Source of the DNA: Haladaptatus cibarius D43
GTDB taxonomy: Archaea > Halobacteriota > Halobacteria > Halobacteriales > Haladaptataceae
DNA length: 64,000 nt
Direction: 5' to 3'
Assembly (NCBI RefSeq): GCF_000710615.1
Contig: NZ_JDTH01000002.1
Span: forward strand, 62,001-126,000
This document shows positions 8,847 through 58,601 of the stretch, piece after piece. Position numbers and translations under genes: made by a program. The first letter of the stretch is position 1, and each line of letters starts with the position of its first letter. The notes under the pieces are model-generated. The model was given only the letters and a program-made list of their open reading frames with translations. It was not told the origin of the DNA and ran no database searches.

Positions 8847-8979
8847 GGGTTGGGGTACTTTGTGCGACCGCTTAGTGTTTGATGGCCCGCGATGAATTCG
8901 TGGTCGAGAGTAGATTGGTTTCGTTGGTGTAAAAACGGCTTTTCGACCCTCTGTTTGTTCGATTTTGCTAGTTGTTGCT

Positions 8980-9434
8980 GACTCCAATGACACTACACGC
9001 ATGACGGAATAGCAGTACTAGATTCGAGTCAGTGTCTGTTTGTCGGTAGCAAGTCACGACTCCAATCATACCGCCACCGTCAGTATCCCCACTCCTCCCC
9101 GCCAGCGCGGGAATGCACTCACGCCTCACTGTCGTTCGGCATTCGTGCGAATCGAGCTGGCGCACCCTTGTGGTTAGTCAATCAAGCGATATGGCGCGCG
9201 CTGGCGTGGCATCGAGGAGTTCACCTCCGAGAAGGTGAGCCAAAGCCGCGCGAGGGATGACTGAGGAACGCAGTGACGAAAGAATCGGTTGGGGAGGCGT
9301 GTGGCGAACGAGATTTCGAAGAAATCTCGAACGCGAGTAGCGCGGAACTGTGTTCCGCGGACAGTCGAGCGGCGAAGCCGCGAGACGACGGTGCAACCGC
9401 GAGCAGGCGGTGCGGCGGCAGTTTCATTGGAGTC
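8980..9434. repeat. Noncoding hairpin mosaic element A
   Basis: The 455-base span is bounded by GACTCCAATGA at 8980-8990 and its exact complement TCATTGGAGTC at 9424-9434. No credible gene lies inside. It contains hairpins such as 9309-9317/9321-9329 (stem CGAGATTTC) and 9341-9348/9352-9359 (stem CGCGGAAC). Read in reverse it aligns along its whole length with the element at 19462-19909, sharing blocks such as GGTTGCACCG, CACGCCTCCCCAA, GGGTGCGCCAGC, CCGCGCTGG and GTGGCGGTAT. It differs by whole-hairpin insertions or swaps. It looks like a non-autonomous repetitive or structured element. No transposase is present. Confidence 0.75.
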
Positions 9435-9510
9435 GGCATCAGTCTCCGCCAATCGAAACATCACAATCTTCTTGACATTTGTCCGATTATCGTCGTTCCT
9501 CACGAAATCC

Positions 9511-19267: not shown

Positions 19268-19461
19268 GGTTCGCTAGATTGGTTCTTTGGGGGTCGGTAA
19301 ATGGCTGTGGGCAGATGGCGTGAATCGCTTGTCGTCAGCGTTTTTCAGGTGGGAGTTGGGGGAGTTCACTGCCAACGTTGCCGACACCACTGAAACCGCA
19401 CCGCGACAAAAATTACTATTTCTGAGACGAACTGGTTTCGAACAAGTTGATTGCAGTTCCC

Positions 19462-19909
19462 GACTCCAATGAAAACCGCAACCGCACCGCCTGCTCACGG
19501 TTGCACCGTTCGCCATCGAGATTTCTCCGAAATCTCGTACCCGCCTACACGCCTCCCCAATCGATTCCTTCGTCACTGCAGTCCTCGGTTATCCATCGTC
19601 GGAGACAAGCTCCGACGCGCCATTCGTTCGCTCCGCTCACGAAGACTTCGCGCGGGCGAACCTCCGGTTCGCCTTCGCGCACCACATCGCTTGCTTACTC
19701 AGTCGGAAGGGTGCGCCAGCGCGTTCGCGCGAACGGTAAGCGAAGCGAACCGTAAGCGCATCTCCGCGCTGGTGGGGAGGAAAGGGGAAACTGCGTTGCG
19801 GTGCGGAGGCAGTGGCGGTATCAGTGGAGTCGTGATTTGCTCCCGACAACTACCCTCGTATAAATCCTGTACTACTCGTTTCGTCGTCGTGGTTGTTTTC
19901 ATTGGAGTC
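19462..19909. repeat. Noncoding hairpin mosaic element B
   Basis: The 448-base span is bounded by GACTCCAATGA at 19462-19472 and TCATTGGAGTC at 19899-19909. It is a relative of element A (8980-9434) in the opposite orientation. Hairpins include 19517-19525/19529-19537 (stem CGAGATTTC, same stem as A) and 19597-19604/19610-19617 (stem CGTCGGAG). The second hairpin and the following CATTCGTTCGCT..CGCTCACGAAGAC block recur at 22030-22080. The surrounding 19268-20020 holds no credible gene. The flank GATTGCAGTTCCC just outside the left end is also shared, in reverse, with the right end of the element at 58142-58486. Confidence 0.78.
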
Positions 19910-20020
19910 GGCGACAGATAGGGACACAGCAAACAGCTTGAAAAATAACACACCGACAATCGTTCGAACTCTTTCTCATTGCCCGAACACTGAAACGAGC
20001 GGCCCACCAACCAGCCAACA

Positions 20021-21901: not shown

Positions 21902-21968
21902 TACCCAAAGCAAATCAACGAGGGCCTATAGTACCACCTTTTCGCCTCCACCTTTTACGACGGTCGAG

Positions 21969-22003
21969 AGACAAAGCCAGCGCGAATCGCGCTGGCTCTG
22001 TCT
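21969..22003. other. Long hairpin upstream of trmB
   Basis: AGCCAGCGCGA at 21975-21985 pairs perfectly with TCGCGCTGGCT at 21987-21997 around a single base. The arms extend outward to GAGAC/GTCTC with one mismatch, covering 21969-22003. It lies about 70 bases upstream of the trmB start, between its promoter region and element D. It may end transcription that enters from the element, or be the outermost hairpin of that element. Confidence 0.6.
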
Positions 22004-22009
22004 CCCTGT

Positions 22010-22363
22010 AAAAGCTGGATCAAAAGCACCGTCAGAGGCAAGCTCTGACGAGCCATTCGTTCGCTTCGCTCACGAAGACACTCCTCCTTCACTCCATTCA
22101 GTTGTCGGCCCGCTCACTTCGCTCGCGGAGAGTATGCTTGTCACTACAAATTTAGCCAGCTTACCGCTCCCGATGGTCGCTGGCGCGGACAGCGAACGGA
22201 GCGAGCGATAGGCCGGTGACACAACCGCACAAAATCAGCAACCTCCACACACCAGGATTCGGCAATTGACACAACTGCCCGGAGCAAGCAGTTCACCGCG
22301 AGCGAAGCGAGCGGGCCGAGGAGTGACCGAAGGGAGCGACGAGTGCTTTTGGTCCAGATTTTT
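22010..22363. repeat. Noncoding hairpin mosaic element D
   Basis: AAAAGCTGGATCAAAAGCAC at 22010-22029 is matched in inverted form by GTGCTTTTGGTCCAGATTTTT at 22343-22363. These ends differ from those of elements A-C. Inside, CGTCAGAG/CTCTGACG forms a hairpin near 22031-22050 and is followed by CATTCGTTCGCTTCGCTCACGAAGAC, nearly the same cassette as in element B. More small palindromes of the GCGAGCGAAGCGAGCGG type follow. No gene is credible in 21902-22409. Confidence 0.7.
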
Positions 22364-22402
22364 ATCGAGGGTCGCAAACCGCGCGACCCTCGCAATAAAA
22401 AG
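22361..22402. terminator. Possible bidirectional terminator hairpin
   Basis: CGAGGGTCGC at 22366-22375 and GCGACCCTCG at 22383-22392 form a ten-base-pair stem with a seven-base loop. TTTTTAT precedes the stem and ATAAAAA follows it, so either strand would read a hairpin then a T tract. It lies just past the stop of the PAC2 gene (22410, minus strand), where a terminator would be expected. Confidence 0.55.
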
Positions 22403-22409
22403 GTGGTAT

Positions 22410-23156
22410 CTACATGTACATCCGGTCGTCCGGTCTGTCCGATTCGCGGGCGGATTCGACGCGGGCGGCGAGTTCGGAGTAGTATTCGCCGACTTCTTCG
22501 GCGAAGGCTTCGAGCGGGCCGGTATCGACCGACAGGTCGTACACGTCGGCGATGGTTTCGGTGAGTCGCAGGGCAGCCTCCACGTCCGGCGTCTGGGCGT
22601 GAACCGGCGTGACGAAGACGCCAGTTTCGAGGTGGGTGTCCATGCCGCGCCTGACCAACGTGGCGTTCACGCCATCGAGGAAGCCACGGCCCATGCCCGG
22701 AACGTCGGTTCCGGCGAGTCGCTTTTCGTGATAATCTTCCGTTGCGATGTAGAATACGCGGTGTTCCTCCGGGCCGTGGGGTACGGGCACGCCGGAGAGG
22801 ACGGCGATTTCCTCGACGCCGTTGTCGCCCGTCCAGTCGAGGATTGCGTTTGCGAACGACCCGGCGGCCCAAACGGGAACGAACAGTTCGCCGACGAGGA
22901 CGGTCACGTCGAGGTCTGGCCGGGAAAACAGCCTCGTGTGGTGACGCGGCCTGCCGTTTTCGAACGGCGTGATTGTGGGCAACTGCTCGGCAGTGACGTG
23001 ACCAGTCTCTTCGAGGGAAAGGTGTTCGACCAGATATTCGACCGCGGTCAGTCCTGCGAGTCCGAACTCCGAAATCCCGACGAGCAGTGTTTCACTCGGT
23101 TCCCCGTCGGCGGTAATTTCGAACGATGTACGGGGCGAGCGCGATTCCCAAGACAT
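22410..23156 (-). CDS. PAC2-family (proteasome assembly chaperone-like) protein
   Basis: The 248-residue protein has the PAC2 family pattern: SETLLVGISEFGLAGLTAVEYLVEHL early, a basic and aromatic centre, then the VLVGELFVPVWAAGSFANAILDW and EEIAVLSGVPVPHG strands, and GMGRGFLDGVNATLVRRGMD. Archaeal homologues are proposed to help proteasome assembly by analogy with eukaryotic PAC2, but biochemical proof is limited. It is transcribed alone, with a strong hairpin after its stop. Confidence 0.85.
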   Translation of the reverse strand: MSWESRSPRTSFEITADGEPSETLLVGISEFGLAGLTAVEYLVEHLSLEETGHVTAEQLPTITPFENGRPRHHTRLFSRPDLDVTVLVGELFVPVWAAGSFANAILDWTGDNGVEEIAVLSGVPVPHGPEEHRVFYIATEDYHEKRLAGTDVPGMGRGFLDGVNATLVRRGMDTHLETGVFVTPVHAQTPDVEAALRLTETIADVYDLSVDTGPLEAFAEEVGEYYSELAARVESARESDRPDDRMYM

Positions 23157-58014: not shown

Positions 58015-58141
58015 GTTCGACTTTTTCGGTGTTTTGGTGGTTTCACCATATTTTGAATTTTTGCTTCGGTGAGCGTTTGAATAACAATTTTGGGTTTGGA
58101 AGTTCTTGCATTCGTTTTGACTTGGTAGTTTTGCAACTGCC

Positions 58142-58486
58142 GACTCCAAGTCACGCCCTCGCTCGTCATTCGCTCCTTACAGTCGCTTATTCCTCGCTTC
58201 GCCCGTTGCCACCAGGACAGCAAGAGGGCCGAGTGCGTCGCACTCGGCCCTCAACTGATTGCTCGGCTTTCCGCCGTAGGTTGGAAAATAAGTTTCCGAA
58301 AAAACGGCTGGTCGGTCTTGGGTTGGGCGGGCAGGCCGCTGGCCTGCCCGCCCTGCTGACCTGGTGTCTCGAAAACGCAGAGCGTTTTCAACGGCAGGAA
58401 AGAGCGTGTCTCTTTCCGTGGATACGGGCGAACGAGGAGTGAGCGACTGCAAGGAGCGAGTGACGAGGGAGGGTGGGTTTGGAGTC
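58142..58486. repeat. Noncoding hairpin mosaic element C
   Basis: The 345-base span is bounded by GACTCCAA at 58142-58149 and TTGGAGTC at 58479-58486, inside a longer imperfect inverted repeat with TGCAA on both outer sides. It contains at least four perfect stem-loops: 58224-58237/58239-58252 (14 bp), 58325-58337/58341-58353 (13 bp), 58371-58378/58382-58389 (8 bp) and 58397-58404/58410-58417 (8 bp). It shares only the ends with elements A and B. The gap 58015-58601 has no credible gene. Confidence 0.78.
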
Positions 58487-58601
58487 GGGAATTGCAATCG
58501 ATTACCACACAAAGCACCGACTATCCATTGTGAAAACCTACAATCGCAGTTTCAAGCGTAACCGAAAACACGGCTACAGTTCGCCAATCCTCTTTTAGTC
58601 G

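Follow-up and report, generated by a model that had tools for sequence, protein, structure and literature searches.

What are the two palindrome-rich, noncoding elements, A (8980-9434) and B (19462-19909), that lie in opposite orientations in a 64,000-nucleotide stretch of the Haladaptatus cibarius D43 genome (the window), and how have they come to share some blocks and differ in others? An earlier note on this DNA had described them as homologous mosaics with hairpins as exchangeable units. The block-by-block correspondence is borne out: the reverse complement of A can be aligned with B along its full length with a score of 349.5, compared to 32.5 or less in 100 shuffles and 66.5 in the forward orientation. 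At the coordinates originally assigned, GACTCCAATGA starts and TCATTGGAGTC closes both elements, and direct reading together with the alignment reveals the same CGAGATTTC hairpin and the same connectors, CCGCGCTGG and GGTGCGCCAGC. The conserved ends extend about 17 bp beyond these limits, and each of the two elements has, in addition, a 78-bp outer unit that bears a second end. The block present in A and missing from B was given as about 60 bases and measures about 51; its two palindromes, the CGCGGAAC hairpin and the CGAGCGGCGAAGCCGCGAG palindrome, are indeed absent from B. The converse also holds, as B contains a hairpin missing from A and a different hairpin in its central slot (Table 1).

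Element A is flanked by divergent genes for a GFO/IDH/MocA oxidoreductase and a NUDIX protein, and B by divergent genes for an aldo-keto reductase and an ORF that matches no Pfam family; the Pfam search identified no transposase among these flanking genes. In a simple coding-potential scan, in which genes were called by a home-made hexamer score rather than taken from annotation, 44 of 48 family loci in the genome have no predicted ORF across them. In the remaining four, A included, a predicted ORF enters the element, in the case of A via over-extended start codons. The flanking genes occur in all relative orientations, and the orientation of the hairpins with respect to neighboring genes is random (18/24 and 19/23), which argues against terminators, leaders and 3' UTR elements; such roles are therefore disfavored.

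The terminal motif of the family, TGYYGNTAGCWRNTCMC-GACTCCAATGAAACCGC, is long, conserved and in inverted orientation. The family ends were represented by a sequence model, R1, and counted at a threshold of at least 18 bits. The genome of H. cibarius (G000, 3.93 Mb) contains 114 such matches; all listed matches form 92 clusters, 81 of which include a match of this strength, and grouped DNA-search matches to A or B yield about 48 loci, with identities between copies of mostly 68-87%. The further copies anticipated in haloarchaeal genomes are thus abundant, A-like DNA matches being found in 30 of the 40 genomes searched (own genome included). Among G000 clusters with exactly two opposed ends, 25 are inward-facing and 2 outward-facing. 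The inward ends are spaced 204-543 bp apart and R1 finds no inward pair at 560-4000 bp; therefore, G000 harbors no copy long enough for a transposase. No autonomous partner with the same ends was found in G000 or among the listed matches in H. pallidirubidus (G006), and eight other genomes have few ends or none; the partner transposon may have been lost or may lie outside the searched genomes. Ends of the GACTCC type are common in G000 and G006 and frequent in the loci read in a syntenic relative, G005. Six other Haladaptatus genomes have hardly any of them (0-2 each by R1, which would miss variant ends such as the GACAACA borne by G008). The end motif (e.g., at 9041-9079) holds a partial dyad, GYYG-N11-CGAC, which appears as TTGTCG...CGACAA in GACAACA-variant copies and is possibly a protein-binding site. 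In H. pallidirubidus, many family matches on contig C1 have a second occurrence exactly 551,849 bp away (e.g., 1792813 and 2344662), which suggests that a large segment is duplicated in the genome or its assembly.

Table 1. Positions of the elements and their component parts in the window.
Feature	Positions	Strand	Evidence and remarks
Element A with conserved outer part of both ends	8963..9451	+	core GACTCC to GGAGTC = 8980-9434
A outer left end	8965..8992	+	weak end-model match, 12.1 bits; exact GACTCCAATGA; end also at orthologous site in G005 and G006
A 78-bp outer unit between two GACTCC ends	8980..9057	+	same arrangement at orthologous locus in G005 and G006
A inner left end	9041..9079	+	end model R1, 41.9 bits
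A arm II, CGCCAGCGCGGG...GAGCTGGCGCACC, self-foldable	9100..9166	+	sequence; aligned with C2:1587021
A slot hairpin with GA/GA internal loop	9200..9245	+	covariance model R2, 57.5 bits, E 6e-13; covariation
A arm I, CGCGCGAGGGATGACTGAGG...AATCGGTTGGGGAGGCGTGTGG	9248..9304	+	sequence; in B in inverse orientation
104 consecutive bases of A identical to copy C2:1587021-1587425	9287..9390	+	sequence comparison
A CGAGATTTC hairpin	9309..9329	+	hairpin search
A CGCGGAAC hairpin, not in B	9341..9359	+	alignment, hairpin search
A CGAGCGGCGAAGCCGCGAG palindrome, not in B	9366..9384	+	sequence, alignment
A right end	9413..9450	-	end model R1, 29.1 bits
Solitary degenerate end left of B	19378..19402	+	end model R1, 15.6 bits; G005 has one too
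Element B with conserved outer part of both ends	19445..19926	-	core 19462-19909
B left end	19446..19483	+	end model R1, 32.3 bits
B CGAGATTTC hairpin	19517..19537	-	hairpin search
B arm I	19548..19600	-	sequence, alignment with A
B CGTCGGAGACAAGCTCCGACG hairpin, not in A	19597..19617	.	alignment, hairpin search
B GGCGAACC hairpin, in the slot occupied by the GA-loop hairpin in A	19655..19673	.	hairpin search
B arm II	19711..19782	-	sequence, alignment with A
B inner right end	19812..19848	-	end model R1, 36.8 bits
B 78-bp outer unit	19832..19909	-	missing at orthologous G005 locus
B outer right end	19895..19917	-	end model R1, 17.2 bits
Third member of end family, different interior of two 13-bp hairpins (58224-58252, 58325-58353)	58131..58501	.	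end model R1, 12.6 + 18.5 bits

The fate of these loci was assessed by comparison with G005, a sister species which is syntenic with G000 and shares about 92% DNA identity with it over the window segment. Forty G000 loci, A and B included, were paired with their G005 counterparts (one-way, i.e., G000 loci looked up in G005). At least 35 of the 40 orthologous intergenic regions contain a recognizable end, and two more hold a variant or remnant end. The G000 sequences were then cut into 60-bp windows, and the best match of each was scored as either the orthologue or a non-orthologous copy. In the flanks, 1698 windows are best matched by the orthologue and 2 by another locus; within the elements, 73 are best matched by the orthologue and 348 by another locus, a ratio favored by the roughly 80 other copies that compete with each single orthologue, although orthologue scores are often near zero. 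The non-orthologous best matches come from the same genome versus the other in 218 versus 137 windows, or 23 versus 12 loci, an excess that is not strong by locus. The 104-bp tract that A shares base for base with a copy on C2 is absent from the A locus of G005, and the other 30-column windows of the same comparison are mostly 60-80% identical. At the A locus, G000, G005 and G006 all retain the outer ends and a double end with a spacing of about 78-80 bp, and the interiors differ; the hairpin that fills the slot likewise differs between orthologous loci. In G008 neither element is present at the A and B loci, and the intergenic sequence there is too diverged to align for a precise empty site. 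The family ends show a TA preference beside them, and comparison of 43 end pairs for a target duplication gave weak signals, none of them clear.

Judged from these sequences, block exchange between dispersed copies would be the simplest account of fixed loci with changed interiors, a pattern more in line with sequence exchange in situ than with ongoing transposition; the data do not cleanly separate exchange from deletion-coupled insertion or from re-insertion. That the genome copies of polyploid haloarchaea undergo intermolecular gene conversion is established (PMC12186497), and gene conversion may act between the dispersed loci of the family as well. The earlier note, made from sequence alone, could not show the rewriting of interiors at fixed loci.

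We consider it probable that the family consists of old, MITE- or SMR-like non-autonomous elements which are now positionally fixed and whose interiors are rewritten by exchange between copies. The elements would have spread no later than in the common ancestor of the three end-rich species by means of a transposase; none with matching ends was found in the genomes searched. Since neither a target duplication nor a clean empty site could be resolved, we infer spread by transposition from the ends, the copy number and the absence from relatives. At present the family would have little or no mobility, and recombination or gene conversion would exchange interior blocks among the dispersed copies, the ends and arms that these have in common supplying the homology. 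In the least certain step, the hairpins would be kept for the sake of a folded single strand, either extruded DNA or a transcript, that is important for the element or for the exchange.

Several kinds of hairpin occupy the slot between CCCTCGCGCG and GCGCGCCA. The most common has two tiers, with about six pairs in the outer stem, four in the inner stem and a GA/GA internal loop between the two, and ends in a five-base tip. In 27 hand-aligned GA-loop hairpins, a subset of 37 chosen for fitting this geometry, 92.2% of the cells are paired and 56 are double-changed, compared to 19.8 in shuffles; all 37 together give 261 Watson-Crick cells, compared to 208 or fewer in 500 shuffles. In 70 distinct model-aligned hairpins, whose alignment was fitted to the structure itself, the corresponding values are 95.0% paired and 180 double-changed cells, versus 52.9 when shuffled. 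The GA/GA loop is almost invariant across copies, which would not be expected if palindromes were simply being corrected to perfection. The paired changes that the earlier note sought in the stems are thus strong in this module; the CGCGGAAC hairpin that it had named is nearly invariant, as is the neighboring palindrome, with double changes in only one pair. On the GA strand, GU mispairs outnumber AC mispairs by 13 to 5, 32 to 10 and 18 to 4 (the last in rows picked by flanking anchors with at least seven pairs), and by 49 to 34, which is not significant, when all anchored rows, including misaligned ones, are counted; the excess favors a folded single strand but is not decisive. Compared with dinucleotide shuffles, elements A and B form more stable folds on either strand (z between -5.3 and -7.3), and the third element has a z below -14, again on both strands. 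Elsewhere in the window, the intergenic region 21913-22410 contains perfect hairpins at 21975-21997 and 22030-22050, the latter resembling the B hairpin at 19597-19617; this region is without family ends.

Such compensatory pairing, together with the near-invariant GA/GA loop, the GU excess and the stability of whole elements, would be expected of a family of structured non-coding RNAs that are expressed at intergenic loci and have the GA-loop hairpin at their functional core. We nevertheless regard this reading of the sequences as unlikely. Rfam yielded no match at the gathering level and nothing credible up to an E value of 5, orientation to the neighboring genes is random, and the interiors, including the type of slot hairpin, differ between orthologous loci. 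Moreover, fully symmetric copies bear the hairpin twice in opposite orientations, so that no strand is favored, and the GU excess loses significance with all anchored rows. Of the two options originally put forward, non-autonomous DNA or structured RNA, the inverted ends, the random gene orientation and the lack of an Rfam match favor DNA, and the covariation and GU excess still leave room for a folded single strand, whether RNA or ssDNA. The broader claim of a modular structured element rather than random repeats is supported, because hairpins are exchanged between conserved connectors at about 80 loci and in several species. A variant that we hold with similar doubt is that the GA/GA-loop hairpin serves as a specific single-stranded recognition structure (ssDNA or RNA) of a dedicated system, which would copy interior blocks between fixed, end-bounded sites in a cassette-like exchange without transposition.

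The GA-loop hairpin model detected its target in eight of the nine genomes of the genus, the own genome included (42 matches in G000, 34 in G005, 28 in G006, 10 in G003, 7 in G004, 4 in G008, 2 in G002, 1 in G001 and 0 in G007), and the hairpin therefore reaches further than the GACTCC ends; a class-wide search with strict filters, in which few candidates were scored, returned the own genome only. Different ends, GGCCCCTTTCAGTCCCACC, enclose the same core of inverted arms and hairpins in several Haladaptatus species. Three loci (L261 in G002, L271 in G003 and L277 in G004) have the same arms and GA-loop hairpins within GGCCCCTTTCAGTCCCACC ends, in near-complete inverted repeats of about 280-430 bp. 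Hairpin runs resembling that of A are also present in genomes beyond the genus, and beyond the family Haladaptataceae. In another genus of that family, G015 loci L180-L184 contain four small hairpins with conserved connectors and an adjoining T-rich CCTTTTTTCTCGTCGG stretch just past predicted gene ends. The similar G015 copies (84-92% alike) were rejected as a recent transposon, because they form an array of hairpins close to gene ends; this array may represent a repeat class of its own. Plasmid records gave one weak Halorussus match and phage records none.

The largely conserved intergenic positions, the palindromic structure on both strands, the random orientation to genes and the partial dyad in the ends would also suit structural DNA sites for binding or recombination, comparable to BIMEs, which selection holds in intergenic regions and which have no mobile past. 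On the sequences at hand we find this quite improbable, since G008, of the same genus, lacks the elements at A and B, the end type is nearly absent from most of the genus, and the paired inverted ends at limited spacing resemble the termini of mobile elements. Least likely of all is that interiors differ through repeated insertion of new elements into old, with later copies targeting the ends of earlier ones: in its favor are the double ends with a spacing of about 78 bp at A, B, C2:961541/961618 and C2:1615840/1615915, as well as the Haloquadratum elements that target each other and the different sequences at identical positions there (PMC3119063), but G005, too, has elements at most of the G000 loci examined (in the G000-to-G005 direction), so that new loci seem rare, and the identical tract of A is internal rather than end to end.

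The favored reading, i.e., of old elements with rewritten interiors, can be set beside known systems. The SMR-A and SMR-B elements of Haloquadratum walsbyi (PMC3119063) are, like the present family, haloarchaeal and without a transposase, with no mover found for either. Their inverted terminal repeats match no known transposon, and our family has no partner in the genomes searched; target duplication was not seen in SMRs, nor clearly in our 43 end pairs; and double ends, which in SMRs suggest targeting of other elements, occur here too. In contrast, SMR-A is about 110 bp long (SMRs in general about 80-110 bp) with copies commonly >95% identical, compared to about 200-540 bp, mostly 68-87% likeness and modular hairpin interiors in our family. 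MITEs of haloarchaea and other prokaryotes are likewise short, non-coding, multi-copy and intergenic, with inverted ends and no transposase gene (PMC10969869, PMC3119063); unlike MITEs, the family shares its ends with no autonomous transposon found in the genomes searched and has its interiors replaced at fixed loci, and its 43 end pairs gave no clear target duplication. The PATEs of Haloquadratum resemble it in their palindromes near the termini and heterogeneous copies, but are related to IS605-type transposons and lack the inverted terminal repeats that our family possesses (PMC3119063). Bacterial REP/BIME mosaics also combine intergenic palindromic units (PMC2817692, PMC12306157), whereas the present elements are longer and have inverted terminal ends.

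In the open-access literature we found no description of the family itself, nor, in the available part of the SMR, MITE and SwitchRepeat literature (PMC3119063), of a modular hairpin interior. The spread of transposase-free SMRs is described there as enigmatic for Haloquadratum. On our reading, if it is correct, the elements of a haloarchaeal repeat family have had most of their interior replaced between sister species while the insertion sites have not moved, and exchange between dispersed copies would be measurable in natural genomes; the covarying hairpin with its conserved mismatch loop would offer a concrete structure for the study of transcription or protein binding. In Haloquadratum SwitchRepeats and deletion-coupled insertions, different repeats or sequences occupy one genomic position in relatives, as here; in our family, however, the ends and the element class stay and the interior changes, at many loci and between species rather than strains (PMC3119063). 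The closest known kinds are the Haloquadratum SMRs, the MITEs, and the SwitchRepeats and deletion-coupled insertions, and the family shares features of each.
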